From Liolophura sinensis (Eukaryota > Mollusca > Polyplacophora > Chitonida > Chitonidae), in assembly GCF_032854445.1 (NCBI RefSeq), contig NC_088295.1, forward strand, positions 47,541,385-47,605,384: a stretch of 64,000 nucleotides of DNA, read 5' to 3'. The position numbers were made by a program, and so were the translations under genes. The notes beneath the pieces were generated by a model, which saw only the letters and a list, made by a program, of their open reading frames with translations, did no database searches and had not been told where the DNA came from. Below are positions 18,563 through 44,900 of the stretch, piece after piece. The first letter of the stretch is position 1, and every line of letters begins with the position of its first letter.

Positions 18563-20124
18563 ATGCGATCACAGAAAGGTGCCAGGCCTACCGGTACAGA
18601 TGGTAGCGATTTCTGGCACAGGGAAAGTATCGCGTGGCAATACAAAATAAGGTACGTTAAGATCGAGAGATGCCGGCCGGCTTAAGTTGAACATGTAGTT
18701 GTCGACGTGACCACCCAGGCTTTGGCTAACTTAGGAACATCTCCACTTTTGGTCATCACATGCTATTCTTTTTTAATCCTCTGAAGTATAATTTCTCTGA
18801 AGAGCCTCCGGGTATCTTTTATGAGCAGGTATGGGAAGGGGAAATGTTAAGATGTGCATTTGACCAGCTAGAATGGTCAGTAAGTATTCTGTTACATGCA
18901 GGTGTAGTTAAAGGCGAAAGAGCAAAGCCCTAATGGCTCTGTAGGCAAAGGACCATTATAAAGTATTCTGTTACAGGCAGTCAAAAGTGAAACAGCAAAA
19001 TCTAAATGGCTCTGCATGCAAAGGGTCCATGATGAAGTATTCTGTCAGGGGTGGTTGAAAGCGAAACAGCAAAATTCTAATGGCTATGTGAAAGGGTCTC
19101 AAAAGTATTTTATTAAGGGTGGTCAAAAGCGAAACAGCAAATCCCTGATGGCCTTGTAGGCAGAAAAGCCATTACAAAGTATTCCTTTATGGACAGTCAA
19201 AAGCGAAACGGCAAATCCCTCATGACCCTGTAGGCAGAAAATCCCTTACAAAGTATTCCTTTATGGACAGTCAAAAGCGAAATGGCAAATCCCTCATGAC
19301 CCTGTAGGCAGAAAATCCCTTACAAAGTATTCCTTTATGGGCAATCAAAAGCGAAACAGCAATCCCTAGTTGCCCTGTAGGCAGAAAATCCCTTACAAAG
19401 TATTCCTTTATGGGCAATCAAAAGCGAAACAGCAATCCCTAGTGGCCCTGTAGGCAAAAAATCTGTTACATAGTACTCCTTTATGGGCAGTCAATAGCAA
19501 AATGTCATAATCCTTTTGGCTCTGTAGGCATTATGAATTATGATGTAATACCTCAAATAAATAAATATATGAATTTCTGCTGAGCTGATTCATGTGATTC
19601 AAGTCTCTTCTTTCTTCCCTCCCCCTTATTTCCACAGTACAATCAACAAGTCTCGTCTAAAGCTGGACATGCTAATCCATGGGATCATGTCATTCTTCAT
19701 GCTGATCCGCCTTTTGCCCGCCATCTTTGCATTTTGGGGAATCCCACAGCCACAGTTCATGAAGAGATGGCGGTTCCCACCACCTAGACCATGGGAATTT
19801 GCATGGTTCGTCAGCACTGTCGCTATTGTATTTGGCTGGAAGGCCATTCCTAGAAACGTGACTGTGTTACTAAAGCAGTACATCATCGGTACTGTGGTGT
19901 TTGGCTTACTGCCTGTCCTATATGGAATAATAGAGCAGTTCGATGACTTACTCGGTTATTTGGATAACAAGAAATTAGCGCTGTATTTTTTCACCTACCC
20001 AGCTGTGCTGGTGTGGTATATGTTTTTGGCTATTGCAGCTCAACTGCATATGTTTGGAATATATTTCTCCATTCGTCTTCTTCGGGCATGGAAGGCGAGT
20101 GAATCAAAACCTAAACTGCGGTAA
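18563..20124 (+). CDS. JAGN1: Protein jagunal homolog 1
   Basis: Two exons: 18563-18651 and 19638-20124 (576 bp, 191 aa; human 183). The donor is AG|GTACGT and the acceptor TTTCCACAG, phase 2. The N-terminus MRSQKGARPTGTDGSDFWHR matches the family signature GTDGSDFxHRE. Exon 2 has four hydrophobic segments typical of this ER tetraspan protein, including the end LAIAAQLHMFGIYF. An in-frame ATG eight codons upstream (18539) is possible, but 18563 gives the family-typical length. Jagunal proteins sit in the ER membrane and organise ER and vesicle traffic; human loss affects neutrophils. The intron carries a 74-bp minisatellite. No canonical poly(A) signal lies close to the stop; a candidate AATAAA is at 21838. 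Confidence 0.93.
18883..19530 (+). repeat. Minisatellite, 74-bp unit, about 9 copies
   Basis: Units contain AAAGTATTCCTTTATGGGCA, then AAAAGCGAAACAGCAA and CCTGTAGGCAGAAAATCCCT. The middle copies are nearly identical and the outer ones diverged, a pattern typical of unequal exchange. It lies within the single JAGN1 intron. Confidence 0.9.
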
Positions 20125-22131
20125 CAGATGAAGATGGCTCTGAACAGGGAAGAGTCTATCCCTTAACAGCATGCGGTTAATTGAAGGAGGGATTCGCCAT
20201 TTTCGAGCTGCCCCATGCTACCAGTTCCCCTGCTTGTGTTGTGTAATTTTTGTGAAGTATTTGAAGAGATGTCCAAGCCCGATGTTGAATGACACAAAAT
20301 TTCCTACGTGTAGGATGCTATAAAAAATCATCCGAGTAAGAACTTTGTTTTATTACTGGTTGTTTGGTGTGTTCTATTCATGAAACACAAATTTTCCCCA
20401 TCACATCACATAAATCTGTTTATATCCTAGGTCATGTTTGTTATATCATTCAATGTATAATTATTATTTTTTTTTTATCTTGCTGCAGAAGAAAATCTAT
20501 ACTGACTGCGAATACATGTGTAAAGCAAATTATGTTGTCCTTCTAAAGACATTTGGTAGCTGGCTACCTGTTGCAAGACATCTTGTAACTTATATGTTTT
20601 TCAACAAATCATTTATGCATTTTTTTGCACATTTTGATGGCGTGATCTTTCTTCAAGATGTAAAATGTAAATACATGTGTTCTCAAAGAAATCAACTGTG
20701 CAAGCTGCTTAGATGTTCTTGAAATTGAATTTGAGGTGGACCGATAAATCAGTTACCAACTGAGCTTCCAGTAACCTCCACATGAACGATCCTTGAAAAT
20801 CTTGCAAACATTTTCTTTCATTGATGGGGTCTCTGTATTAAAAGTTTGCCAATGACCATATGACTGGATACAAGTAAGGAGTCTAGTTGAGTCATGTCGT
20901 GATTTTACATCTATGAATGCTTATGAATTAACACAGCAAATGGGTTGAATTAAATCTGAAACTTGCAAGTATGCTAAGTTATTATAGACTAGAGTAGGGT
21001 GGAAGTTTGAGTTATGAAACCGTGTGCATACTTGCACTTCAGCACATAGGCTACTGTAAGGCTGCATGCAACAAACTTCAGTCATCTCAGTACTTGTTTT
21101 AATTATTTCTTTTTGTCTTGTATGCTGTTTTTTTTTTCATGAAATGATTGTACCATTGTTTCTTTTTACACCATATTATGCTTTGCTGGCATAATGCATC
21201 TCCTCATTTTAAAACAAGTGAGATTTAAGTTTTTTTCTTCATGAATGAAAATTACATGCAGAATGTGTATGGAAAAAGGTGTCCCCACATGTAGTTATAT
21301 GCTTTACCACAACATAATTATACAAAAAAAAACCCCCAGTTTCCCTATTCTCTGTAGTTTGTACATGTATTAGTGGTAACTACAATTAATATGTTGCAAA
21401 TCAAAATTTCCTTCGGATTGGATTGTTTAAACTTTTAACTAGTTAATTTACTATCACATATAATAATGACAATTTTTACAATTAATTGTTTTTTTTTTTT
21501 CAGTTTCTAATGAAATTACTCCAAATATGGTATGCACAAGATTTATTGTAGTGTGGTGGAATTTCATATCAATCTCTGCAACAGTTATCACTTTCATCAA
21601 ATGTTTGTTGAAAGTTAATGTTTCGCAACATCATTTAAGGACCATCTGGTGCAGAAAGAGCTCTTGTTAACATGGCAATGACGTGCAGGGTTTCACAAGT
21701 TCCTGACTTAAAAGTGGCATTATATAACATTTTTTGGAAACTCTTGCCTTCCTATTTCAACAAAATACATTTAGCTTGATTTTTTTTTTGGTCTTGTTTT
21801 TTTCTAAAAGTGCCTGTTTCATAATGTGCAATATGGTAATAAACTCTGGTGGTTGCGCTGTTCATATACAAAACGTGTTTGTTTTCTTTACCTCTAGACC
21901 ATACTCCTTACAGCATGTGCCAGTTTACATCACTGTACCCACTAGACAAGCTTGACATTTGGAACCTGTGCAATGCATGTCTTCTTTAGGCCCACATAGA
22001 GTGGAGCCAATTGTTAAAAAGTGTATTTTAAAGTTATGCCAGGCTTAAAATATCAGTCTTGTTCTAATATAAAACCAACTGGACTTCAATTAATCCTGGC
22101 CATAGCTTGTAATGCATATACCTCATGTATC
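20125..22131. other. JAGN1 3' UTR and downstream sequence
   Basis: AT-rich with several T-runs. No further coding exon was recognised. An AATAAA at 21838-21843 and an ATTAAA near 20836 are possible JAGN1 poly(A) signals. Confidence 0.5.
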
Positions 22132-22133
22132 TT

Positions 22134-22575
22134 TTGTACATTGTGTGTGAAGGAGGTAGAGGAAACTCAGCTCTCTTGTACGTTGTATGTGAAGGAGGTA
22201 GAGGAAACCTCAGCTCTCTTGTACATTGTGTGTGAAGGAGGTAGAGGAAACTCAGCTCTCTTGTATGTTGTATGTGAAGGAGGTAGAGGAAACCTCAGCT
22301 CTCTTGTACATTCTGTGTGAAGGAGGTAGAGGAAACCTCAGCTCTCTTGTACATTGTGTGTGAAGGAGGTAGAGGAAACTCAGCTCTCTTGTATGTTGTA
22401 TGCGAAGGAGGTAGAGGAAACCTCAGCTCTCTTGTACATTGTATGTAAAGGAGGTGGAGGAAACCTCAGCTCTCTTGAAAATTTTATGTGAAAAAGGCAG
22501 AGAAAACCTCAGCTCTCTTGTATGGGTACAATGTATTGTGCAAGAAACCTCAGTCAATTCTCTTGTATGTGAAGG
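22134..22575 (+). repeat. Minisatellite, 44-45-bp unit, about 9-10 copies
   Basis: Unit contains TGTGAAGGAGGTAGAGGAAA followed by CTCAGCTCTCTTGTA. Alternation between one and two C bases before TCAGCTC, and between TGTACATTG and TGTATGTTG, hints at a two-unit higher-order arrangement. It lies downstream of JAGN1. Confidence 0.9.
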
Positions 22576-23679: not shown

Positions 23680-23970
23680 GAAGTTCTGAGAGTCTAATAA
23701 TCCTGTGTACAGCCAATCAGCATTCACCCTAGGTTAACATCATCAAGGAGTATGATGTTCTGAGAGACTAGCTCTCCTGTGTACAGCCCATCTGCATTTT
23801 CTCCCAAGGTTAACGTCGTCAAGGAGTATGATCTTCTGAGAGACTAACTCTCCTGTGTACAGCCAATCAGCATCTTGTCCGGACTTACATCACAAAGCAG
23901 TATCATGTTCTGAGAGACTAACTACCCTGTATATGGCCAATCAGCACCCTCCCCAAGTTAACCTTGCCAC
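23680..23970. repeat. Tandem repeat, 75-bp unit, 4 copies, overlapping the ORC3 stop
   Basis: TTCTGAGAG recurs at 23684, 23758, 23834 and 23908. Each unit carries GTACAGCCAATCAGCA and a GTTAAC a few bases later. The last copy includes the final coding bases of ORC3 (minus strand GTTAACTTGGGGAGGGTGC TGA). The other three are non-coding degenerate copies in the 3' UTR. Confidence 0.8.
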
Positions 23971-26900
23971 GTGATCCGTCTTCCGTTTGGTCGGCTTGAT
24001 GAATCCCAGGAACTGTAACTCTGATACAGCTCGGATAAACCGGGCTCTGATGGTTTGTCAAGGTCAACTCTAAGTCCTCATTCAGTCAATATCAGAACAC
24101 AATAACCATTTTCCAACCTTGTATACATCTGCATGTACCTGACTCAAATCTAAGAGTATCACCTGTCTATAATTAAAGCCAATTACTAATAAATGTAGCA
24201 TACAATTTCTGACATTTTCTGGTTTTCTGACTCACTGCTCTGCATGGAGTTATCAAGAAAATTCCTTAAATACTCAAAACTGCTACCTGGCTTATTGAAC
24301 CTGACATACACATACTAGCAACAGGCATCATACTTGTACGTGGACAGGTTCAGACACCTCAACTTAATTACTTTTCACAACTCTGTTACCACCATCGAAC
24401 TTGGTACCTGTACGTGGACTCGTTCAGACACCTCAACTTAATTACTTTTCACAACTCTGTTACCACCATCGAACTTGTGAAAAATCCTTTTCACAACTTT
24501 ATTACCACTATCAAACTTCATACTTGTACATGGACACTTTTGGACATCTCAGCTAAATTCAGACTTCTCAGCACTTTACCGCGCCTACAGTGGAGATGTA
24601 TTAAACTTGAGAGAGTAAATATCTCTCGCCCAGTTGATGAAAGGATACTGCAGGACTGGATCTATCTCCTGTTTTTCACTATCTTCATCGTCTTCCAGTG
24701 GTGTAATCACAGTTACAAAGGCCTGGTAACAACACAAGGGAAAATGATTAATGGCAACAGAAAAACAGAATATTCACTGAGCTCAAGAGTGTTTCCCATT
24801 ATATCAGAATCAAATGGTTGAGGAAACAAGTGTTAGTTACTCTGGAAGAAGAGTAGAAATAGGCATAAACTTCCACACCTATAATTTGTTCTGACATGGT
24901 TTGTAAAAATTGGAATTCTTACGAGGCCAAGTGATATGTCACATAAGATAAACCGGACACAAGACGTCACATCACTTACCCTGCAGGAAACGCATACTCA
25001 TCTGCAGGTTGCTGGATTTGATTGATTTATTTAATCGGTGTTTTTACACCGCACTCAAGAATATTTCACTTATATGACGGCAGTCAGCATTATGGTGGGT
25101 GGAAACCGGGCAGAGCCCGGGGGAAACCCACGACCACCAGCAGGTTCAGGTTGCTGGAAGAGCTTCCCACATACAGCTGGAGTGGAAGCCAGCACGACCT
25201 GACCTCACACTGACCACATTAGTGAGAACGTCCCAAGTCAACGTGCTCTGCTAGCATTGTTATCACTTGGCTGCAAAGCACCCCCAAGCCACCCCTACCC
25301 CCCCAACTCAGATCTAATGATGACACAGATACTGTCTCATTTGTCAAACATTTCAGATCAGTCATTATGAGAATCAGATTCCTGATGACACATCTATATC
25401 ATATTCGTTCTCTTACCTGTAACCAGTCAAACAGGTTGATTAGTTGTCCACATTCAAGGTGTAGTTTGTACACTATACACACATCAGGCATGGAGGAGAG
25501 CACCCCACCTCGCTCACTGCTACAACACTCACACTGAAACATGGATGAATTTGTAAACTGTCATCACAAAGTACATGTAGTTTGTACACTATACACACAT
25601 CAGGCATGGAGGAGAGCACCTCACCTCGCTCACTGCTACAACACTCACACTGAAACATGGACAAATGTTTACACCAACACCATGATTTTACTGCCATTTT
25701 TTTTATCTTTTACAACTGAAGCCATGTATATGAGTGTATAAAAACAGATTGCCTCGAGTCAGTCATCACATCCTTCGCCATGTGCTTGTTGACAAAGAGT
25801 AAGATTCGAGTCTGTGACTTCTGAGGTAACTGATTATCTACTTTGCATTTCGTTCCAAAGCTCCAGGTTAGTAATTTAATCCTTGTCACTTACATTCCAA
25901 CATTTACATGTGGTGGTAATCACAGCACATCTTCACAAGGAATGGTTAGTGACTTGCGAAGAAGACATCTTATCTTTCAGTATGGGTCATTAGCTTCCAC
26001 ACTGGCCTGAGTTTCAGATGACATGACTTTCTGAATGAATCAATCAATGAATGCTTGGGGTTTAAGGTCGCATTTTTAGTCTCATGACGACGAGGAGTCA
26101 TTAGGTGTGTGTACATATACTGTGTCTTCTTTTGGCAGTGCAAGTCCATGCCGTCGAAGTGCTGTCAACGCTGAAGTATCACACAGAAGACACCAGACAT
26201 GACACCCCACCCAGTCACATTACACTGACACTGGGCCAATCAGTCCTGTTTCCTTGCTCAAACCTCTCAAAGTGTTGAGCGTCAAGTGAGGCAGCAACAA
26301 GTACTATTTTTGAAGTCTTTGGTATGACATAATCAGGTTTTATCCCAGGTCTCATGACTTTGAGGCGGATGCACTAGCCATTAGGCCACCAAAGCATTTC
26401 ATCAGAGTTTGCACACCTGACGGCCAAAAAAATTCAAGGACTTTTCAAGTACTTTCAAGTACTTAAAATACAAATTCAAGTACCTCAAACGATGGTCACA
26501 ATCTACGCTTTTGCATGCAAACTACGACAACAGGCGCAGATTGAATACTTTTTTAGGTCCTTTTGTAAGCGTGGAACAGCCATGGCGTGGCTCTCAACAG
26601 GTACACAGCCTTGTGTTGGTGCCATAACCTTCAGGCGGTGCAGACATCACTGATAATCAGGTAACCCGTCACTGATTCTTATAAATTTTCCGCTGTCCGT
26701 CAGAATAAAAAGAGCAGCTTAAAATATTTCCATACAACGCAGGTGTTTGTAAACCGCGCCACTGTCAGTCATGACCGCATACGTACCACTGGCAGACGCT
26801 TTAGGTACATGCCCATTGTCAGTTGATTCACGGATTCTTACCACCGAATAATTTTCTTCACATGACACAAACAAAATCAAGTACTTTCAAGGACCTCCAC

Positions 26901-29900
26901 ATAAAAATGGTCAAATTCAAGCACTTTCCAGTCCTTGACTTACCAAAATAAAATTCAAGCACATGTACTTTCAAGGTTTTCAAGGACCCATGCGAACCCT
27001 GTTCATTAACTTTCTGAAGTATGTTCTAGATATTGCAGAATTTGCCACTTACATTCCAACCTCACATATGGAGACAATCACAGCACATACAATCACGAGT
27101 CAGAGAGTCACAAGGTCCAAGACAAGAGAAACCCTATCAGTTTACCTGTAGGTAATGATGTGGGTTGCTAAGAGCAGTCTGGATGGCCACGCGTGGTGCT
27201 GCAGACAGGTGCTGCTTGACTTCACTGACACGGTTGTAATAAAATATCTCCCACAGTGGAAGAGAGCTTGGACAAACTAAATATTTTCTGCAAAACAAAA
27301 AAAAAGGGGGGGTTTTGAAACAGGTTACAAGTCGTAAATTCATAGAAGTGTATGAAAATATATAAACACTCCACTTATTCATTTAATTCATTCATCACAG
27401 TTCAAATCTACCAACATTATAAAACCGGAACAGCTTTCCAGTGCTAATACTAGCAGTAGCTAGTGGGAATATCTTTTTTAGCTCAGTTAATAAAATGCTC
27501 GATTTGGGACGATGAAATCTCAATCTTGGCCAAATTTAACTTGCAAATGTAAAAACATTTACAAAGGCTTTAAGAAAATAACAAAAGCAAGATCTAGTGG
27601 AATAGATGTATACCTGACAAATTTCAAATCTATATGCATTTTTTGGGAAGCAGTGATGAATTTCTGTGAGAGTATGAAGGGAAAAGATGTTGTCTTACTT
27701 GACGAGGGAATCAATATAATCTATGATCTGGTTCCTGAGTTTCTCATACGGTGAGAGCTTCTTTTTCTTTCCCAAATCCTGCAGAGTCTGAAACCAAATT
27801 ATGACATACCGGTAAGCATATAAATTATTCCAATAAATTTTCTAACAAAACTTATTGGAACAGCAGATCATGCTGGCTTCCTCTCCGGCCGTTAGTGGGA
27901 AGGTCTGCCAGCAACCTGCGGATGGTCATGGGTTTCCCCCCGGGCCCTGCCCGGTTTCCTCCCACCATAATGCTGGCCGCCGTCGTATAAGTGAAATATT
28001 CTTGAGTACAGCGTAAAACACCATTCAAATAAATAAATAAATAAATATTGGAACAGTTATAAAAGGCATAAAGGGCCACTTCAGACAAGATTCTTCTATT
28101 GATGAATAGGAGAAGAAAAGTATCCTGTCCAGCAGAACACCCGTTCATTCATATACCATGCATCAATTTTTCTCAGATCTTCAAATAATCCTACTGATAC
28201 CGCGTGCTTACAGAAAAAACATTTCCGGCCGTTTCTGTGCAAATTCCTCGAGTGACGTCATTTTTCATGGAGTGACATAATCTGCAGCGTCTTCAATCAA
28301 ACTAAAGCTCATTTACGGATGACGGTGTCTTCTGAGCAGGAGATGTCAACTGGAGTTTTGTGACCTCATAATAGCGTCAAATGGGGTAATATGAAGTCAC
28401 ACCAGGGATGAGTACGGAAATGACCTAACATTTTGTTTTTTGCACTGAATTGTACTACATGGCCTTTGAATTGCCCAAGAAGCTTAACATATCTTTATGT
28501 GATAACCGTTTGTACGTAGTATGTACCTGTGTCGCATACTAGCAATTTTAACCTGAAATGTGTGTGCACCACAATGGCTCTTAAACAACAACAACAACAA
28601 CAACAAAATAATGAATCCAATGCTGAATGAATGGTTGAGTTGCCTCAGCAATATGGCAGCCCAGTTTTGACAGTGGTACAGAACGACATGAGCTGAATAA
28701 GATGTAATTACAGACTTTGTCTCGTTAATAGCAAACTGTTCACGTTCTTAACAACAATTACTTGCCTGTCTCAGCTCATACAGTTTTGTCTTTGTTGGAA
28801 GGGATTTAGGCTCCGACTCCTCTGCTTCTATATCCTCAATATCGGGTTGATCTGAGTTACAGATAAAGGGGGAAAACTCTTACCCTATGTCCATATTTCT
28901 TGCTGTGGAAATGATTTTGACATCATCAGAGCATATTATTGCAACAAGTACATTGGAAAGCTGGTAAAAAGCATTTTCATAAGCATCCACATCTCCCGCA
29001 AAAGTGTACATCGAGACCACTGAAAACCAGGCATTTGACATCTTACTTGCTCCAGCGTATGTGACTCGATCCCACACGGCAGTGAAAACCTTGTCTAAAT
29101 AACATGGGTGTTACTAGTAATATAAAACTCTGCTTCACGGCCTCGTAAATCCAAATGTTGATGCACACAATTTATATATGTTGTGCACATTGTTCTGTTG
29201 TCTTACAGACTATAATTTCTGGTTATAATCAGCCGTAGTTTTCAGAATATCGTTCAAACTTGCTCAATTCCCTATACCTTCCCCCGTTATCTTTCACCTC
29301 ATCATCTCCTCGTTATAGCTTCATGCGCGTGAAGTGCCCTGATGCGTGTGGTCTTGAATTCCAGTTCAAATTATTATGGCGCCATCCTCGGTACGACCAC
29401 CTGCATACAATCGCCAGACAGTGAGATCCTCCAGGTAAACTATCACCACTGTTAATACACAACTCGGCAGTATGTGGGTAGGTCAGCCAGCTGTACAAAA
29501 TTTCTGCATTTCAGCGAGTGTTGTTGCAGAGAGCAAGGTGTGGTGCTCTCCTGTATGGTTCTCTCCTGTATGGTTAGCATGCCAGTGCGGCATAATAATC
29601 CAGGAGCCTTTCACCAATGCAGTCACTGTGAAGACCAGCTCATGCTAGCATCCTCTATGGCCATACGTGGGAAGGTCTGCCAGCAACCTGCGCATGGTAG
29701 TGGGTTGCCTCCAGGTTCTGCCCAGTTTCCTCCCACAATAATGCTGCCTGCTGATGTATAAGTGAAATGGCTTAAAACACCTGCTCAACTGCTGTGGTCA
29801 AAGCTATATCCACCGTTATAAAGGATCTGATCCTCTGCTGATCAGTGTAACTTCCTCACTCGGTGTTCAGCATGAAGGCCATAGTGTAACAACTGGTTGA

Positions 29901-32900
29901 CCCGTATCAGTATAATGACTCGGGCAGGGCAGCCTACTTGCCTTCTGTAAGGCGTCTCAGTGAAGCAGCACTATATAAAAGAGTGGTGGAAATCCGTCCT
30001 ACAACAAGGAGGCACACTACAAGCGCTCAACGGATTCCTTCGTCGTCCTATGACTGAAAATTGTTAAGTACGATGTTAAATCCCAAGCACTCACTCACTC
30101 GCTCACTCAGCTGATCAGGTTTTGTTCTGTACTTGTCTCTCGATGAAATACATGCAACAATCCAAGAAAGAAAGCTGTTGAAATCCTGAGTGCCGTGAAA
30201 AAGACTCCCTTAAAATGAAAATCTACAATAAACTTCTTTCATAACCAATTTATAAGCTAAATAGTTACGCCCTCACTAGTTTTCCATTCTGATTGAATTT
30301 CTGATGAGGCCCATGCTCTATTTATCAATATTATATTAATCTCACTACAATTGGCCTTCTTTTCAACGTTCCATGTCTCCAGTCTGCATCTCACACAGGT
30401 GTAGCCAAGAAACCCACTCTGAACTTTGACATTGGGGTATGAAGAAAAGGTGTTAAAAAAAATACAATAATTTTTTTCCTGTTCGGTTCTTACGCACTAC
30501 ACCTGTGCTTTGTTATATATAGAAGCGGGTCATGTTTATTTGACCTTGATAGCCATGTAATTTCTAACACAAATGTCAGGATTCTGCTTTATAGTCACTT
30601 CCCCATCAACCCTGATCTATCCTATGGTCCACATACAGTCATCGAGCTGCAATAATACATGGAGGACGGATCCATCATCCAATCAGGTTTCTGAACAGAA
30701 TGAGCGCACAAGTGTATCATCAAGCCTTTACTGTATGGGACTCGTTTTGATGGTCTACTGCTCGAACTGTAGAAAATCAAAAGTGAACAAACATGTCACT
30801 CTAAGTTAAGCGGTTTTGTCAATGTAGTCGTAATGGCAAACACGTTTACCTACGGACATCATATTCTATTGCGGGAATACAAGAAGTCACATTCAAATAA
30901 AAAGTCACAATCACAGAATTGTAAGCCACAAAATTATACAAGTCCAACCATTTCATCATGTAATATCTCAACTCACTTCCTATGTCTTCCAGTTGGTGTA
31001 TGAAATCCTGGACTCCATCTTTAACAGAAACTAATTCTGCCGTGAGATTGGTACTTTCTGACAGGAAAAGGCAAAAACAACACAGTTTCCCCATCAGTTC
31101 ATCCCTGGACAACATTCTGTAAAAAAAATATATGTGGTTCACATTAACTAACACTCTGCAACGAAATGACAGTTCTTTTGAAAACATTTTCAGTAACAAC
31201 ATATCATTGTCATATGACCCAAAAATTTTTAAGCACGTCATAAAAATCCAAGCATAAAAACAAGCATACAGATAACATAGGGTACATAAATTAACAACTG
31301 CAATGAGTAACATTTGAAGTTACTCCATCCGTCAGTCAGTCGGTCGTTAAAATTTAACAAGAACCATTCTTACAACGAAGACGAAACAGGGAGAGCATAA
31401 ACTTTAAAGGGATGTTGCAGTTAGAGAGAATTTGCGCTTTAGAATGGCAAAACCCAATAAAACATGGTAGGATCTTGTTCCTAAAGTCTGCTGTATTAGG
31501 GGAGGTATATCATCATGTCTGGCTTTAAGGATCTAAGACTCCACGATCTCCACGTTCTTTGTTATCAAGTCTGACCATACACTCCAAACATGACTGTACT
31601 GAACTGAGTAATCGCAAACACGAACATACTTCAAGTCTAAACTTAAGACAGTTTACAAAATGCATAGAAAAGAGACAAATAAACGTCAAAAAAATAAATA
31701 CTTCTACATCTACAGTCTCCCTTACAATCAAACCTGTAAACACATGTGGGCCTCCATGGCGGAGGGATTAGCACGCCAGGGAAGCAATGACCCAGGAGCC
31801 TCTCACCAATGCAGTCCCTGTGAGTTTAAGTCAATCTCATGCTGGCTTACTCTCCAGCCGTACATGGGAAGGTTTGCTAGCAACTTGCAGATGGTCGTGT
31901 TTTGCCCAGTTTCTTCCTACCATAATGCTGGCTGCTGTCGTATAGGTGACATATTCTTGAGTACGGCGTAAAACACTAATGAAATAAATAAATAAATCAG
32001 GACACCTTTCTGACATTAGTCGGAACTCCATGAGTCAGAGAAAACATGTCACGGATTAAACGTTAGGGGAAATACAAGAATATGCTCGGCAGACTGACCT
32101 CATCAATTCTTTTGCTTCATTGTAATTTTCCATATTGCACAAGTCATCATCTAAATTCAACGCATACAGTTCACGGATCTAAAAAAAAAAACAAGGCGAC
32201 ATAAATTTAGTTATTCATTGTTTTTCAAGGTCACATTTAAGAATGTTAGTCAGTATGATGGTTTTAAACAAACATGACAAGATGTGTAATAAAGTATTCT
32301 CAATATTAAGTTCTTAATACACACAAGCAGAATTAAAATCTGATAAATGACCTAGAATTTCGCCTATGAGCAAGTTGCATATTTCACATGATTTCAAAGA
32401 GTTCTACAGATCTTAGAAAGATGTTTTAAGGTGTTTTTGGAAAATAGAATAATATCCAACTGATAAGACCATTTACAGTATTTTAAGGAAACTGGAATAT
32501 GATCTCCCAGGTGCTTCAGCGAGACCCACCTGGACCATTTACAGTATTTTAAAGAAACTGAAATATGATCTCCCAGGTGCTTCAGCAAGACCCACCTGGA
32601 TCATTTACAGTATTTTAAGGAAACTGGAATATGATCTCCCAGGTGCTTCAGCAAGACCCACCTGGACCATTTACAGTATTTTAAAGAAACTGGAATATGA
32701 TCTCCCAGGTGCTTCAGTGAGACCCACCTGGATCATTTACAGCATTTTAAGGAAACTGGAATATCATCTTTCAGGTGTTTCAGCGAGACCCACCTGGATC
32801 ATTTACAGTACTTTAAGTAACCTGTAATTTCATCTGCAGGGTGCTTCAGCGAGACCCACCTGTTTGCCCAGCGGGTGGCGGGGTAGTTCTGACACCATGG

Positions 32901-35900
32901 CATGAATGCATCGTAGCATCGGGTAGTAGTTCTGGTTGTACTTGAAGATTTCCTGTATTAATTCTGTCACCACTTGCTGTCAAATACAACATGCAGTCCT
33001 CAGTAAGAAATGAATGAAAGATTATGGCCTAACACCACATCAGCAGTATTTCAGCCATATTGTGGTGATCATCAATGGGAGACCTGAGGACAAGCTACAC
33101 AAACGGTTCAAATGACAGCAGAACACATCGTTTCATTCTGTGACGTTGCAGTGCATGTGCACTTCATATATGTTTTATGAGCACACATACACCGAAAATT
33201 GTGACATAATAAAGGAAAGAACAAATTAGTTCACAGCTTTGGGCCGTCTTGATACAATCGAGAAGGAGTTTTATGAGTTCCCCATTAGGATGAGTTGGAA
33301 CTTTTATACTGTATATTAAATTTTCAACCACACCTGTTGGTTCTTTTCAACATTTCAGGTACTTTTAAAGAAATGTGATCAAACAATACTTTCAGTGTGA
33401 GAATACTTTTACATTAATAGTACTTTCTCTATTTTTATGCATGTCATCAGTCAAAACTGTGAGCTATGAAGCTGATTTGATATGAGCTTTATGTAAAAAC
33501 AGTGTATCATGCTATTATATTTGTGCATTTAATAAAGCAATGCTGTTAAGGAACATACCTTTGTGTACTTATCATCAGTAAGTAAATCAGCCTGTTTGGA
33601 GGGAGGCTGGCCTTCAACATATCTGGAAAAAAAATATGAAAATCATCAATGAAGGATTTGAGCTTTGAAACACTACAGTCAGCATTTCAACCATGTCGTG
33701 TTTATTGCAAGCAAGAGTTTTGTAACTCACCCCTGATATATGGGGAAGAGTGATTCACAGAAATGGCCTTTACGCTTGGTGGTGTAGTTTGAACAGAATG
33801 GTCCTATGTGAAACGGCATGGCATAACAGGAAGAGTGATTCACAGAAATGGCCTTTATGCTTGGTGGTGTAGTTTGAAACGGAATGGTCCTAAGTGAAAT
33901 GGCATGGCATATGGGGAAGAATGATTCACAGAAATGGCCTTTAGGCTTGGTGGTGTAGTTTGAAACAGAATGGTCCTATGTGAAATGGCATGGCATATGG
34001 GGAAGAATGATTCACAGAAATGGCCTTTAGGCTTGGTGGTGTAGTTTGAAACAGAATGGTCCTATGTGAAATGGCATGGCATAAGGGGAAGAGTGATTCA
34101 CAGAAATGGCCTTTAGGCTCGGTGTAGTAGTTTGAAACAGAGCGGTCCTATGTGAAGTGGCTTGGCATAAGGGGAAGTGATTCAAAGAAATGGCCTTTAG
34201 GCTAGGTGGTGTAGTTTGAAACAGAATGGTCCTAAGTGAAACCCTTAAAAGAGAAGACAATAAATAATTTAACCTTAGTTATTTCAGAAGCGGGGTGGAA
34301 ACACGTCTAAATGTCTTTTTTTTCCTGACATGCTTAGTAACTCAACAGAGACAATCTAGCATTCTTATGTAGCCATTGCAAATGATCGTTGTCTGTGACC
34401 AGCCAATGAAATGGTTGTGGATGGCATGACACCATGAATAAGGACAAAAACTTATAATCAGTCGAGCTGCCTATTTCCAGGATCCCATCCAGTGCACTTT
34501 AAAAGGGATAAAACCACTAGTGGAAATCTTTTCTTCAGCGTTACACTGTGAAAAGATAAATAAAGGCTACGTAGGCTTTGTCAGAGTTGTTGTTAAAATT
34601 TTTATGATGACATTTCAATTTATAAAAAAAATATATATATAAAAAAAAAATAGATAGTCTCATGTCAGATTCTGCAAGTGAAATCAAGATTCAAGGGTTT
34701 GTTTCCAGTGGTCAGCCTTTGTCCCTACTTATTCAATGAAGAAATGCTCCTAATTTTTTTTAACACAAACTTGCAGCCGATGTAACTTGACTTTTTGCAA
34801 CGATTTATCCCCACACAAATCAACAATGGAACTATTATGTCATGTGCAAATTTCAATCCAATCACAATAGAGATTTTCTCTCCTTATTTGTGACCACACT
34901 TTTTAGAGTTAAGCTACAGCTACACGTAGGGTCAGCCAGGTAAACACAAACAAAGATTTTTCAACTTGGGAATAGTCAGAATAATTATCAAACCTCATAA
35001 AGGAATTTGTCTGTCTGATCTCCTCTAACTCCTCGTGGGTCATCTGCTTCATCTGTTTATCTACAGCCTCTAGAGGGCAACAAAGGCAGCTGACAGGGTT
35101 GCTGTAGAAATGGTCCATCATAGCAAACTACAACAACAACAACAATATGCAGAGCAGTTGGGTAAGTCCAGGTGTACGATGGATAGTGAACTTCAAAGCA
35201 TCACACAGCATCTGAACATCACACAATCAGAATTTGCACTCAGAATTCATTTTTCAGAAAAAAAAAATCCTTCAAATTTTGTACTTTCTTCTTTGCAATT
35301 CTTCACGGAACATCACGATATGCTGGTCTGGATTATAATTAACATCAACTGTCACACTACATTCATTTCCACATGTACATCTATCTTATATATGCCAAAG
35401 GCTATCAAGCTTCGCACAATTCGAAGAAGAACACCATTGTAATGAAGCTCAAGAAGAGAAAAGTGTAACTTCATAATTACACATATACATATGTATACAT
35501 ATACGTACATGAAAGCCCCTCGTAAAGTTCAGCACAGAGAAATCATGAAACAAGAAAGCGTCCAGCAGGAACTGGAAGACTTTGGCACCAAGTTTAAACG
35601 GATATCTGTCTGTAAGGAACAACTGTAACCAGAGATAACAATGAATAAAGCATACAAAAGTAGAAACAATCCTGATTTTTATAATTTTTACCCAAAGGTT
35701 AATATTTGTGGAAAAATAACAAAATAATCATAAGCCTCAGTAAATCATTACAGATTTTTCCCCTTCACAGAATTTTCCTAAACAGTCATTCAGGAGTCAA
35801 GAGGAAGCATTTGCAAATGAGTGAAAACATACCGACATATTTCATATGATCCTGCAAATACTAGTACCTCTACCCAATGGCTTGGTGCTCAGTACAGAAG

Positions 35901-38900
35901 TTAGAGCAAGGAAATATAACTGGTTGGCCCACTGTCAGTATAAGGTGACTGGGTGGGGTGTCATGTCTGGTGTCTTCGGCATGATACACAAATGTACTTC
36001 AGTGGTGGCAGCACTTTGGCGGCATGGACTTGCTCTGTCACAAGTACAGGTACATGACGGATGTCGTGTGAGGTACACATACATATGCCTGATGTACATG
36101 AACGAGTTGTGTGAAGTACACATACCTGATGGAAGAGTTGTGTGAAGTACACACACCTGATGGAAGAGTCGTGTGAAGTACACATACCTGATGGAAGAGT
36201 CATATGAGGTACACATACCTCAATGTAGGGGCTGTGTGAGGTACACATACCTGATGTACGGGCTGTGAGAGGTGCATATACCTGATGTATTGGCTGTGTG
36301 AGGTATACATACCTGATGGAAGAGTTGTGTGAAGTACACATACCTGATGGAAGAGTCGTGTGAGGTACACATACCTCAATGTAGGAGCTGTGTGAGGTAC
36401 ACATACCTGATGTACAGGCTGTGAGAGGTGCATATACCTGATGTATTGGCTGTGTGAGGTACACATACCTGATGGAAGAGTTGTGTGAAGTACACATACC
36501 TGATGGAAGAGTCGTGTGAGGTACACATACCTCAATGTAGGGGCTGTGTGAGGTACACATACCTGATGTACGGGCTGTGAGAGGTGCATATACCTGATGT
36601 ATTGGCTGTGTGAGGTAGACATACCTGATGGAGGAGTTGTGAGGTACACACACCTGAGGTATGGGCTGTGTCAGGTTCACATACCTAATGTAGGAGTTGT
36701 GAGGTACACATACCTGATGGAGGAGCTGTGAGGTTCACATACCTGATGTTTGGGCTGTGTGAGGTGCACATACCTAATGTGTGAGTTCTGTTAGGTTTAC
36801 ATACCTGATTGATGATCTGTGTGAGATAGTCTGTGGATGGTGCGGCCTGGAATTTCTCCATACAAAGCAGAGAGGACACAGCATTGGGCAGAAGACGATG
36901 GACAGCAGTTACTGTTGTGGCGATCCCAAACACCATGACGACTGGCAGGTGATGTAGGTGGTTACTGAAGAAATAAATACAATATTAACCTGACATCATG
37001 GGTAGACCTGATCCGATTGTTGTGGAAAAGGGGCATTAATTAAATTCTGAAATCTAATATTCCAGTTCAGTGATTTTTTTGTAACAATTTGTCACTTCAA
37101 CTGACTCCCTCACAACTACTGATCTGGACTGCTAAAGTTATGATTTTTCCTTTGTTTCTGTTCACATTGCTAGTAATATATATACATTTATGTAAATCTC
37201 ACACATGCATGAGACTGGATGAAGCACACACACACACACACAAAACAAAACATATCATAAAAAAGGTCTGAACATGGAAGGCACTTGCGCCTGACCCAAG
37301 AGTGTTACATGCAAGTGGAGGTCTGAGATGGGGACATGGTCAGAAAATCATAGTTGAATTTGGTGCTCAAAGAGGAAAGAGCAATATGATTTAGTGAATC
37401 TTACTTGAATACTCAATACATACATCAAATCAGTTTTTACAACAAATATCAAATGTTCAGTTGTTCTTTCTATCAGTGGGTTTAATAACACTACTATTTC
37501 ATTCCCTACTCAAAAAGTATTTCACATATATGACGACAGGTCAGTATTTCAGTATTAACTGGGAATTGTATCCAGCACCTCTGGGTAAACAGTTTTATGT
37601 GCTGACCACAGATCACTCAAGCCAATTCCAGTACCATTTATTTTTGACACTGCTATCAATAGCCTTTTTTTTTTTTTTTGACACTGCTATCAATAGCCGT
37701 TATTTTTCACACTGCTATCAATAGCCTTTATTTTTGACACTGCTATCAAGTCTTTTTCTTTGACACTGCTATCAATAGCCGTTATTTTTCACACTGCTAT
37801 CAATAGCCTTTATATTTTGACACTGCTATCAATAGCCTTTAAATCCTGCTTTCCCTGTTCAACAATACACCCATCGAAAAACATTACCACAACATCGCCG
37901 CAACTTTTTAACCAATTATCTGAAAAGTAAATAAATGTTGCTTAAATGCCTCACTGAAATTTTTCAGTCTTCAACAGTTTTTACTATAGAATCCCTGAAT
38001 GTGACACAAACTCATTAAGCAAACTGATAGAACACGAAAATAGTTGTTTGTGATCAGCTGACAAAATTTCATACTTGTTTAAAATTAAAACAAAACAATG
38101 TAAAAATCGCGCCCCACTTGATCACTCTCATCATTACATGCACGATGCTGCTGTCCTGTCTTATAAATCGATACAACTCACTAAAGGGGAACAACTTTGC
38201 AAAACTTTTCCAGCAAGGGAACATTGTCTGGCGGTATAACAGTGTAATGGTATAACTTCACACATGCAGCACAGCATGGCTAGAGAAATGATGCTTTACA
38301 TATTATCCGATTTACCTGATTTGACAAAAACAAAATTCAAACACATCAAGCATTGTCCGGCACAGAATTAATTATCACTGTACCTGAAACACAATGCTTC
38401 CCGCCCTCGAATTGTCCAATTTTGGTATTGCTACTACCTAAAACCAAAATGCTCTTGTTCACAGTCTTGTATACACCTGGAAAGGGTACACAGTTGGGCA
38501 TCGCTCAGTCTTGCATCGGTCTTATGTGAACAAAGTGCCTCCAATCTCAACTAAAACATTACTGGTTTACGGTACTGCAGGATTTTCAACATGGCGACCG
38601 GTTAAGTGATGGACACCCAAAGTGAGTAAATACCTATATGAGACATCAATTATTAAATGTCGGCCCATCGCGCCAAACTGAGGCCCCCTACCCAAATTTT
38701 CTTTTCAGATTTGCACGAATCTCAGAAACGATTTTTTCAAACAGAAAAAACAGAATTCCATCTAAAGACGAAAAATTCTCTTCCCTAATAAACACAGTTC
38801 TGCATGTGTGTACTTGCTTAGCTTCTGCTGAGACTGTTCAGTTCTAATTTTGTTCATTCATGTAGTAGTTTCAAGTTTACCTTGTCAAATTATGGGTAGA

Positions 38901-41900
38901 GGGTACTGCAGTAATCACCTAACCTACATCAGATACCAAATAAACTCACTGATTTTAATAAAGCCATAAATGAAAATGCTGTAGCTGGATTCAAACAGGT
39001 AACCTCTTATTGGTCAATGACGCAATAACCGCAGTGAGCCAGCACTTCAATCACCTAAACCAGCAAGGCCACCCCAACAACACGTAAATACATCAAGCAC
39101 CCGTTATAATACAACAAATCTGACTTGATCCTAAAATACAGTTCAGTCCAAGAAGCCCCTGTGTTTCAATGGGCAGACCTGCAGATGATGAGGAAGTCCT
39201 GTAGAACCTGGGGGGTGAAGCTCTCCAGGTCCTCTAGCACAATCACCAGGGGAGGACTGGAGGATGGGGCGGAGTCTGGACTACTCGTCCTTTTCTTCTT
39301 GGACGGGGAATGTTGACACTGCAAACACAATCCACGTATTAAAATAACCATGCTATGGTGCTATAAACAATCCCAAGCACGTTATTGACTGAAATATTCG
39401 TGATGTGGTGTTATTAAGCCTCAATTATTCATTCAGTCCAAATGCTTGATTTATTGATTTCAATTTATTTTAGGCCATACTCAGGAGTATTTTCAGTTAC
39501 AAGTTTACGGGTGAAACTGGAAAGAGAAAACCACAGCATTCTGCCCATAGCTGACAAACCTCCTGAGCCAAAACCAAAGTAGAGCCAAAGATACTGACCG
39601 ACTGATTGACTGAATGATGCTTGTTTCACACCATACTCAATAACAGTAAGATTCACTTCATACAGTGGCAATCTGTTTCATGAGGGAAAAAAACGGAATG
39701 CCCAGAAGGTACTCTAATTGCTTAACCTCTTTGCATATGAAGGAGCATCTTTCAGTGCAATTTATACACACTTTTAGACAAAACCACACTGCTTAGATGG
39801 GCCAATTTCAGGGCTTCACAAAAAACATAACTTCATCAGTCTACATAGAATAATGCCTCCAGAATATGATTGATTAAACACCTTGAAAACATGTGAATAG
39901 ATTGAAAAATTATCGTAACCTGCCATACTTTGGCAAGTTACCGAAGAACATTTCCTCGTGTGACATATAGATAAGCAAATCATATTGGTTGAAGACTTAA
40001 CAAAAACTTTCCAAAGAGTAATCCTTTAAAGTCACATCAAATACTGAACTTACTGTGTCAAGACAACATTTCACTAAACTTTTTAACGAATGAAAACAAT
40101 CATACAAAAATACATTTAATGCCTGAACATGAAACTCTGAACAATGGTCCATTGGATATAAAACATTAACCAGGTGGTCTCTTATCCTTTAACGGGTAAT
40201 GGTGAAACACCCACCTGCTGTTTTTCTGCATACCACTCAGCTAGTACGTCTATGCTGCAGGGTACTTTACCAGGCCCTATGCCGTCTTCGTCATCACTGT
40301 CCTGAAAAACACACCATAATTATCTGTACATAATAATCCATACTAATTCACCTCTCAAGTGGACATTCAGAGAACAATAAAGCAAAAAAAAGTATTACTA
40401 TAGGTGGTGAAACTTACATTTTTACAGTAGGATTACATCTAACCTTTCAAACAAATCACAAAATACATTTTTACGATGCAGAGCTCTCAGAATCAGGCGG
40501 GAAGCTTTACACAAGTGGTTATGGACGAAATTTTATGTCAAATGCATTAACTGTTATATATACATATAGCACAAGAATATGCTTAATTATCGATGCATCT
40601 TCTGAGATGTCTGTCGCCACGATATGGCTGAAATATTGCCGATGTGGCGTTAATTCATAATCATTCATTCTGAGATGTCTGCGATATCAAAGGCAAATTT
40701 TGAACTCAGTGTTATCATCTAATGCAGCACCACTGAACTATCACTGCGGGAATCACTGAGATGTCTGAGATATCAAAGGCAATTTTGAACTCAGTGTTAT
40801 CATCTAATACAGTACCACTGAACTATCACAATGGGAATCATTACATGAACACTTAGACTTCAACCTGATGCTGAATTTTTCTTTTCATTCCTCATAATAA
40901 CAGACATGACAGAGGTGACAATAACAGACATGACAGAGGTGACAATAACAGACATGACAGAGGTGACAATAACAGACATGACAGAGGTTCCCAACCAGCA
41001 TAAGAGACAGCATATTATTTCCACTGAAATATCTGTTAACTATAAGTTAACTATATATCGGCTTGACATATTATAAGTTTCGTCTTACTTCCAAGACATC
41101 ACTTAGTAAACAAGAGCCTACACGGCCTGCTAGTGAGCAACATGTGTTCTGTATTGTTGACGAAACCACCCTCACGCGGAAGTAATGTTGCAACAACAAT
41201 ACATCACACATGCATTTGGAATTAAACCCACTCACAAGGAAATGTAACCAATTACACCTTCTCGCATCATTCCTTTTCTTTTCTCTTATACTGACATAAT
41301 ATTCAAAATCTTAAACCCAAAATATCAAATAACCCATGGGTCACATGCAAGCCCAGGAAATGAAGCAAATGGTGCCGTACTATTTTAAAACCTATATTTC
41401 TTGGTGACAAGCCTTGTGCATCTTAAAGCCAGACTACACTGTATTCATAAACAGCCCTACAGTTTTCTTCACACTTACCAGGCTAGCCATGTTCATAAAC
41501 TGTCCGACGGTTTTGGTCAGCATAGTCTTGATGTTTGAGCAATCCTTGGCTCGGAGTACAGTGACATACGGCGAGACCTTCTCCCTGACCATCTGGGTGA
41601 GGTTAGAGAACATCACGGCATGGTCGGGGGTGTTCACACCTTCAGGGGAAGAAACAAGTGCATCAATTGAGTAATGTAACGAAAATGAATCCAACAATTA
41701 CAATCTCCGAGCTGAGAGCCAGTTATTATTTTTAACCCATGTAAAAATGCATTTAAGTTTAAAAAGGACTACAAGCATCGTACCTCACCTGTTAATGGGT
41801 GACAGCAGAACATTTCCATGGTAGTTATCTTAAACAACCTAACATTTCGCCCACAAAATTGCATTTTCAGATGGAAATAAATGTCACAAAATATAATTTT

Positions 41901-44900
41901 TGGTGATGAAACCATTTTCCAGTAGAATATCATCCCATGTTTCAAGCAAACCTCAAAACACCTATCTAAAATTGATAAAACTCTGAGAATAAGGAAGAAT
42001 GAACGAGTTAGTCATGGACAAAATTTGTGGTCATTTAAGGCATGTGCCTCCACCAGGGTTTTGTACTGAACCCAATAAAACATGGGTTGTACTGTGCATT
42101 GCCTCAGAGCACTATTTCTCAAATGGTACATGTCACAAATCTCCAAATGACCTCAAATAGTGCATGTACCTGTTATGAGTGCAGCTGTGGGGATTTCATT
42201 GAGAGCGGGTCTTTGTTGGCCCCCTGGAGAAGACGCCTGATGCAATCTGCTGCCAGAAGTCTTGATGAACTCCAACAAGTCATCAAAAATCCTGGAATTC
42301 ATTTCTGATTGTAGAATCTGCAGGAGAAATACGTATTGGTTTACACAACTAATTATATTCATCAGAAGTATTATTTATTTATTTAATTATTTATTTAAAT
42401 GATTATGGTTTAAGGTCTTACTCAGAAATTTTTTTACCGGTGGCAGAGTGCCTGAGGTAGGTAACAAAAATATTGCATGATAAATGCTAATTTTTTTACA
42501 TATGCACACTCTTTCTCATCACAGATTTTACTTCAGTTATTTCAGCCTTCACTGTACATGAATATTCAGAGTTTTTATGCATAAGCAGAACATGATGCAT
42601 GAAAATAAAAATCAATTCGAAACAAATAATGGTAGCAGTAAGTTTTACACTAAATCTATTAGCCACAGTAAAAATATTACCTTTACGTCACAAATTTTCC
42701 TACTTTTCTTAACTTTGCGACAGATCTTTGGTAAGGTGAGTAAAAATGTTATACTGTATGTTTGTACCAGTCATACTGAATTCATTAGCAAAAAAGGCAC
42801 CAACCTAAGTGACAGCTTTCACCTGATGCAGAATGTCAATACCCTTTGAAGTAATATTTCAACGCTTGCTGCTATGATGAAAACTTGCCTGCACTTTATT
42901 GTTTATGTCCTCCCAAATCTCCTGAAATAACTTCTTACGTCGGTAACTGGCCGGAGCTTTAATCTCAGGAACAAAATAATCATCTGCAACACAGTTGTGA
43001 CAGAGCAAATCTACCGTTACATTCATGATTTACACTGAATTATGGAACTATACTCTGAAACGACAGTTCATACTTCACAAACAATTTACCTGTTCAAATA
43101 AATCTACACAATATACTCACAAAACATGTCTGTTTCCCACTGAAATTTTTGAAATGACGCTAAACATATACATGTACTGAACAATGTCACAGACACATAA
43201 CCTGTATCGAAGGTAAACTTTCAACAGACTTTCCTCAGTCTCAAATGTTTCGTGTGTGTGTTTAAAAAAACAAAAAACACCATGTGAACAAGAAAACACT
43301 CTTTTTTGCCTCTGATAAAAGTTGTGAAATGGGGGTGAAAACCTAGGAATACAAAGCCTTAAGCCTTAGCCTAAGGTATAACATAGTAGGAGATTAATTT
43401 TGGGCGCGTAAAAACTACAAGTGGGCAAAGTAGACCATACGTTACAGATGAAATCATAGCCTGCAACACATCTGATGTCAAACAATGAAAATCTTAAGAC
43501 ACCTAAGTCCCAAATTACTGCAGTTCCCTCTGTTGTAAGTGGAAAAAATTCTGATACCAAATGGATTTTACACCATAGTCGAGAACAATACACTTCTAAA
43601 CGGGACATGTAAATATGAATATGATCATCGCAATATACCTAATCATTAAAAGGCAAAACATAATTTTCATTTATGAGTACTGCAAAAATATTTTATGTAC
43701 CACGTATTGTTTTGTTTGTTTTTATTTTCTTCACTCTTACAAAAGCATTAAAAATCTTTCAAAATGATCTTATTTGTTGTCTGTAAACTTTCAACATATG
43801 TTCCAATGGAAAGTATGCAACATCCACCAAGGCATTTATAGCTGTGTATTCAAACTCACCTGGTTTGGCTATTTTTCGCTTTGTAGTCTTGAACACAAAA
43901 CATCCCTAAAAGAACAAGTTAATTTCAAGAATATTTCATTTCCACAACTGAATCCCAAGGAATATCTATCTATCTTAATTCCTGGTATTCTCAATTGCAC
44001 CACAACAAAAAAGCATGACAGATGATTTATTTCTTGGGGTTTTTTTTTTTTTTTTTGTACGCAGTTCTCAAGAATTTTTCACATGTACGCCGGCGGTCAG
44101 CATTATGATTGAAGGAAACCGGGCAGAGTCCAGGAAAATGACCCACAACCATTTGCAGGCTGCTGCCGTGCGGCAGCATGAGCTGGATTTGAACTCATTG
44201 CACCGCGCTGGCATGCTGAGCCCCTCGACCATGGAGGCCCCTCCATGTTAGATGCGTGAGTGAGTGAGTACTTGAGGTTTAACGTCGTGCTCAACAATTT
44301 TTCAGTCATAAGACAACGAAGGAATCCTTAGGGTGTATGTAATGTACCTCCTTGTTGCAGGGCGGATTTCCACCGCTCTTTTATCTAAAGCTGCTTCACT
44401 GAGATGACTTACCAAAGGTAAGTAAGCCAACCCGCCCGAGCCATTATACAAGTCAACCAATCGTTGCACTATCCCCTTCATGCTGAACGCCAAGTCTTAG
44501 GTGTGACTCGACCCAGGATTGATCCTGAATCAACCGCTCCTGACATGTTAAATGACATTCTATTATAATTAATATGGAGGATAATTGATGAGGTTATTGA
44601 CTTGAACAATACTTACTTGCTTGATTTACTTGATTGGTGTTTTACACCGTACTCAAGAATATTTCACTTATACGACAGCGGTGGGTGGAAACCGGGCAGA
44701 GCCTGGGGGAAAACCACGACCTTCTGCAGTTTGCTGACAGACCTTCCCATGTACTGCCGAAGAGGAAGCTAGCATGAGCTGGACTTGAACTCACAGCAAC
44801 CGCATTAGTGAGAGACTCCTGGGTCATTACGCTGCGCTAGCGCGCTAACCAACTGAGCCACGGAGGCCCCTAGTTGAACAATATACAATGTGTGTATATA

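Follow-up and report, generated by a model that had tools for sequence, protein, structure and literature searches.

Minisatellites that bear splice sites, and tandem duplications that span exon-intron boundaries, have been described before. In human IFI6 (also 6-16 or G1P3), two downstream minisatellite units reportedly serve as donors, resulting in three mRNAs (PMC4526556, where Turri et al. 1995 is cited for a minisatellite that provides multiple splice donor sites). In human genes located in segmental duplications, internal tandem repeats at exon-intron boundaries alter splicing and can create introns (PMC2812944). Intron gain by tandem duplication of segments containing AGGT is the subject of the Rogers model, with ATP2A1, the potato RdRp gene, and a 24-bp segment present in multiple copies in fission yeast as instances (PMC4974935). 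Intronic minisatellites are further known from a TSSK1-like gene of abalone, where the number of the 27-bp units varies between individuals (PMC6905558), and from Caenorhabditis elegans, where one has been linked to alternative splicing (PMC4039745).

The arrangement typical of IFI6, that is, tandem units each of which carries a donor and which begin at the donor of the exon itself, is also found in the ORC3 gene of the chiton Liolophura sinensis, which lies in the 64,000-nt stretch of contig NC_088295.1 analyzed here (the window). No paper on this locus was encountered among the literature matches listed (including the best 20 of 446 and 20 of 28, from a mainly open-access collection), and among the matches listed for decoy or duplicated donors or for AGGT repeats of fission yeast nothing was added; one of the papers listed, PMC2660306, mentions ORC3 without reference to minisatellites. 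Relatives of ORC3 exons 8-10 were looked for in viral contigs, where none of nine pattern matches was confirmed.

The ORC3 gene and its exons

The gene is encoded on the minus strand, and 18 of its exons could be placed, from position 43905 down to 23941. Its identity as ORC3, proposed in the first-pass annotation, was borne out by the hand-joined exons, which match all three Pfam ORC3 domains (ORC3_N, 3.6e-89; ORC3_ins, 6.6e-50; ORC_WH_C, 3e-36) as well as the human ORC3 chain 5uj8_A (E 1.3e-126). The number then given to exon 8 also agrees with our exon table, which takes an exon 1 for granted; neither exon 1 nor exon 15 could be located. Exons 16 and 19 have been given ends that are unreliable as donors, and exon 20 terminates in a stop codon. 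All three were kept in the tables of decoy consequence and strength and of exon ends against the repeat consensus; they are excluded from the comparison of accessibility, which covers 14 donors. The local alignment test covers 16 donor edges, with exons 16 and 19 excluded, and the end of exon 17 enters only this test and the test of array placement.

The peptide joined from exons 8 and 9 can be aligned without a gap to the human sequence KEHLTTVLDK-LLLTTQFPFK, which, together with the join in phase 0, makes 36804 the expected donor (see Table 1). A different start of exon 9, at TTACAG/ACAGAT, was dropped because the phase fails; CAG/TTGTTC fits phase 0 and matches human ORC3. Exon 3 has an apparent GC donor (CAG/GCAAGT, window position 42889, minus strand). 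Downstream of ORC3, at 14485-17002 of the minus strand, there are ORFs with matches to Pfam SIMPL (9e-08 and 7.4e-06), which we take to represent an IRAK1BP1-like gene. A dispersed element with recurring translations is present near 27850-28050, 29620-29790, 31780-31990, 44030-44300, and 44640-44840; presumably it is a SINE of a type known from molluscs.

Table 1. Features of the ORC3 locus (window coordinates; the slash marks the splice junction)
Feature	Coordinates	Strand	Remarks and basis
ORC3 exon 8	36805..36964	minus	ends in phase 0; exon table and alignment with ORC3 of human and fly (PDB)
Last 25 nt of exon 8, with homology to the repeat unit; probable founder copy	36805..36829	minus	local alignment, consensus, profile
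Original donor CAG/GTATGT	36799..36807	minus	junction 36805/36804; joins exon 9 at 35622, phase 0
ORC3 intron 8, 1182 nt	35623..36804	minus	exon table; acceptor TGGTTACAG/TTGTTC
31-bp minisatellite, 22 decoy donors and one degraded copy	36076..36804	minus	TRF, donor pattern, profile
ORC3 exon 9	35509..35622	minus	begins at 35622 (TTACAG/TTGTTC), phase 0; exon table and PDB alignment
ORC3 exon 12	32860..32976	minus	exon table
66-bp array, 6 units	32467..32862	minus	begins precisely at the donor of exon 12, CAG/GTGGGT; 5 decoys
116-bp tandem duplication at the exon 18 acceptor edge	25460..25674	minus	repeats acceptor and exon head; local alignment
74-bp array, ~3.5 copies	23684..23962	minus	first copy takes in the last codons of ORC3 and the stop (LTWGGC-stop)
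Exon 5 tail, 28 nt of which recur 48 nt farther on, beyond the donor	41444..41519	minus	79% identity; suggestive only

A minisatellite of donors in intron 8

Exon 8 had been described as ending in AATCAG/GTATGT, with this donor copied serially into the intron, and this is indeed what the sequence holds: a search with the pattern GGT[AG]T[AG]T found the real donor at 36804 plus 22 decoys about 31 nt apart (36773 to 36125, spacing 29-32 nt), 23 donors in all, a count that array copies deviating from the pattern would escape. The GT of the decoys is preceded by CAG in 17 cases, by GAG in three, and by TAG in two, and the donor itself reads GTATGT (17/22), GTATAT (3/22), or GTGTGT (2/22). The minus strand of the window has 14 occurrences of the sequence CAGGTATGT, of which 13, the real donor included, belong to the array; the plus strand has one. 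TRF assigns to positions 36104-36825 a period of 31 with 23.4 copies (80% matches); a higher-order period of 156 bp, corresponding to five units (4.4 copies, 89% matches), is located in the distal part of the array. Beyond the array, the copies of which span a donor, intron 8 continues for ~450 nt to an acceptor of its own.

When a profile was built on the decoy units (n = 22), its matches included the tail of exon 8 (36827-36799, E 0.0003) and, at 36118-36082, a single degraded copy (E 0.0009). The span of 36060-36805 given in the first-pass annotation is correct as to the array and has to be amended at both ends: the array extends 21-25 nt into exon 8, and 36060-36075 are a remnant at best (profile E 15). 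The same annotation had considered that the unit might also lie far from ORC3, but a profile scan of the window found nothing convincing outside the array, the best match having an E of 3.9.

Predicted donor choice and predicted fate of decoy-spliced transcripts

When scored with donor position weights, which are approximate, the decoys are in the top 4% of the 4,177 GT sites on the minus strand (a number that includes the array's own donors), and 12 of the 22 are in the top 0.9%. Greater sequence strength was rejected as the cause of the real donor winning, as its nonamer is shared by 12 of the 22 decoys; the predicted pairing with U1 is slightly better in 10 of them (-10.2 vs. -9.9 for the real donor).

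The donors do differ in predicted accessibility. Among the 23, the real donor of exon 8 has the lowest predicted opening energy in six of seven folding settings: at spans of 60, 100, 160, and 240 nt it requires 3.3, 2.3, 2.8, and 3.1 kcal/mol, respectively, while the medians of the decoys are 6.4-6.7 kcal/mol; the same rank holds for folding at 15 C and for 80 nt upstream plus 40 nt downstream, and at a span of 400 it is second lowest. When flanks were exchanged computationally, exon 8 joined to the sequence following each of seven decoys required 4.8-11.8 to open, and the upstream flanks of these seven decoys joined to the real intron start required 2.8-5.3, which suggests that the accessibility of the real donor comes mostly from the intron side. 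A small hairpin at the donor (AGGUA-UGUG-UACCU in a common decoy form) was rejected as the sole mask, for it is predicted at -3.5 kcal/mol in this form, at -2.6 in another decoy form, and at -3.0 in the 20-mer of the real donor; since these values differ little and one decoy form is the weaker, pairing between neighboring units must contribute. A perfect artificial array of a hand-composed unit required 9.3 kcal/mol to open, a value reached by two of 100 shuffled units. In exons 12, 3, and 6 the donors presumed to be real require 8.4, 7.3, and 7.2 kcal/mol and are closed to the same degree as many of the decoys; closure alone, therefore, does not forbid use, and accessibility as the sole cause of donor choice was rejected as well. 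According to these models, the real donor may be favored by two features, its being the first of the series, on an intact exon, and its being predicted as the most open.

The earlier expectation that extensions by multiples of 31 nt would mostly shift the reading frame applies to 17 of the 22 decoys; the other five keep the frame, yet all 22 meet a stop codon, the first three in exon 9 and the remaining 19 inside the extension itself. Stops would also result from the five decoys of the 66-bp array and from the decoy acceptor of exon 18, which makes 28 out of 28. As every decoy leads to a premature stop, normal ORC3 requires the exon-proximal donor, and the 22 computed stops in intron 8 suggest that use of the decoys is rare or unproductive.

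One could also envision that splicing resorts to the decoys to an appreciable and perhaps regulated extent, and that the array is a valve which lowers ORC3 protein through unproductive splicing, with the copy number setting its strength. The high rank of the decoys by the approximate weights (top 4% of the 4,177 sites) and the identity of 12 nonamers with the real one would fit such a function, as would the stops following from each of the 22 decoys, from all five in the 66-bp array, and from the single decoy acceptor; moreover, two units of the IFI6 minisatellite reportedly do serve as donors (PMC4526556). However, random extension into an intron soon runs into stops as well, and the real donor is both first in the series and predicted most accessible in six of the seven settings. 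The donor motif, further, is not significantly better kept than the rest: the donor columns of the 31-bp array are less variable (mean heterozygosity 0.081 vs. 0.257), and six of 32 circular windows are conserved as well as they are (six of 66 in the 66-bp array). Selection for the donor motif was rejected on these grounds; we see nothing to indicate that the decoys have been selected for, and we regard such a valve as unlikely.

The tail of exon 8 as a copy of the repeat unit

The last 21 nt of exon 8 preceding the CAG match the consensus of the unit at 16 positions (CAG excluded). Elsewhere in the window, on both strands and with the array region excluded, no position out of 126,310 reaches this number (the highest is 15), and 16 other exon ends have at most eight matches, those of exons 16, 19, and 20 not being firm donors. 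Plain local alignment, a cruder test in which two of 240 mismatched exon-intron pairs score at least as high, lengthens the match to 25 nt. Homology so far beyond chance implies that exon 8 is part of the 31-bp array rather than its neighbor.

Two origins had been proposed for this situation, namely that the duplication began at the exon-intron edge or that the array invaded the exon, and the former is now favored by the 16 matches out of 21 and by an alignment to human and fly ORC3 that is free of indels. The tail encodes LTQIINQ, which aligns without a gap to LTTVLDK of human and LNEVLDK of fly ORC3 (two identical and four similar residues of seven with respect to human, without an indel across the junction), and thus it has the appearance of long-standing coding sequence. 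The simplest history is, therefore, that the tail was duplicated into the intron along with the first intron bases. The residue types alone do not settle this direction, as the consensus of the unit, read in the frame of the exon, would give LTQLFHQ and could be aligned without a gap as well. The intron unit adjacent to the exon is the most diverged of the 22 (mean identity 0.70 vs. 0.78-0.83 for the others), and identity between units peaks at a lag of five, with 0.95 in the distal half vs. 0.84 in the proximal one, which suggests that later growth took place away from the exon. Judged from this single genome, the duplication probably proceeded from the exon into the intron.

If the minisatellite had instead arisen in, or been inserted from, some other place and its edge had overwritten the tail of exon 8 by invasion or gene conversion, a likeness between tail and unit would be expected, too, and a unit reading LTQLFHQ would pass as roughly ORC3-like. 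The tail has, however, retained the frame, the length, and similar residues of ORC3 across the junction, the unit is absent elsewhere in the window by profile, and the copy next to the exon is the most diverged rather than the most homogenized; this history is, in our judgment, quite improbable.

Duplications at other exon edges of ORC3

Exon 8 is not the only exon of the gene with a repeat at its edge (Table 1). All six units of the 66-bp array behind exon 12 open with CAGGTGGGTCT; for this array duplication of an exon tail was rejected, as it has only the CAG in common with exon 12. At the end of the gene, agreement with a later copy of the 74-bp array extends to 22 of 27 nt (best elsewhere 18, among 127,148 positions); the 18 coding nt alone have 13 matches, equalled by five of 127,166 other positions, and in local alignment exon 20 is marginal, with 14 of 240 mismatched pairs equal or better. 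At exon 18 it is the acceptor that is repeated: the first exon base would be 25649 after the decoy and is 25533 after the real acceptor, and the local alignment score of 58 is reached by none of 306 mismatched pairs. The repeat of the exon 5 tail, along with which (by eye) no donor was copied, is unequalled among 240 mismatched pairs and is suggestive of a further edge duplication.

TRF arrays of at least 90 bp number eight in ORC3, three of which overlap a coding edge. Random placement of the arrays gave P values of 0.006, 0.017, and 0.074 according to which of three limits was set for the overlap, in a post hoc test that weakens as the allowed overlap becomes larger. The other five are 116-673 nt away from any coding edge.

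In all, seven further minisatellites or tandem duplications, with units of 24-86 bp, are located off the edges or downstream of ORC3. Those within the gene are at 24331-24477, 33738-34241, 37637-37841, 40670-40840, and 40896-40988, and those downstream at 18906-19502 and 22130-22522.

In a gene so rich in minisatellites some arrays must touch exon edges, and the adjacency might be a coincidence. The window is indeed rich in arrays, five of the eight in ORC3 keep away from edges, the overlap of the other three is not significant under the loosest limit (P 0.074), and the match of the last exon is weak on its coding part. Coincidence does not, however, account for the homology between exon 8 tail and unit (0/126,310 positions) or for an exon 18 duplication that beats 306 of 306 mismatched pairs, and we consider it as doubtful as an invasion of the exon. 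Very unlikely, finally, is a combined reading in which the repeated edge duplications (at the donors of exons 8 and 12, the acceptor of exon 18, the stop end, and perhaps exon 5) and their 28 decoys, partly masked by RNA structure arising from the repeat units, form a tunable brake by unproductive splicing, which, if true, would act on a replication-initiation protein.

A proposed history of the locus

The explanation we prefer, with a probability of roughly 0.7, is recurrent, mostly neutral tandem duplication over exon edges of ORC3, which would be tolerated because the original site still serves in splicing. About 31 bp would have been duplicated at the exon-intron edge, to which exon 8 contributed its last ~24 nt and intron 8 its first ~7 nt; slippage or unequal exchange would then have lengthened the array toward the interior of the intron, a later step being one of 156 bp (five units). 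Each copy bears a usable-looking donor. The duplication would be tolerated because the original, exon-proximal donor still yields the normal frame. Since every decoy leads to a premature stop, selection would act against use of the decoys, or nonsense-mediated decay would remove the products. Duplication of this kind may also have reached the other exon edges of the gene. The order of these events, the preference for the first donor, and near-neutrality are what we infer to be the case.

Comparison with known systems

If viewed as a natural experiment, intron 8 of ORC3 presents the spliceosome with a row of 23 nearly identical donors, one of which it has to pick, and the gene as a whole shows duplication of exon edges several times within one conserved gene. 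The case, thus, bears on the lengthening of introns, on the origin of cryptic sites, and on why such sites stay silent.

Among the known systems, the abalone TSSK1-like gene resembles ORC3 in having an intronic minisatellite with a short unit in an invertebrate gene, but no relation of that minisatellite to a splice site is reported in the passages concerned, unlike the situation in ORC3 (PMC6905558). The human genes in segmental duplications have tandem repeats at exon-intron edges, as has ORC3; those cases are copy-number differences between recent paralogs accompanied by transcript evidence, whereas ORC3 is a case from one genome, known by sequence only (PMC2812944). In intron gain by AGGT duplication, a short segment bearing AG/GT is duplicated in tandem, in fission yeast to multiple copies as in ORC3; the difference is that the ORC3 segment probably spanned a donor already, in which case no new intron would be needed and an existing one would have been lengthened (PMC4974935). 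The likeness to IFI6 lies in the units of the minisatellite carrying donors in both genes; the gene is a different one, the extensions in ORC3 all meet stops, and the ORC3 decoys are those read from the DNA alone (PMC4526556). That a minisatellite can supply several donors is already known from human IFI6; what ORC3 adds is the large number of donors, together with edge duplications at several places of a single gene.
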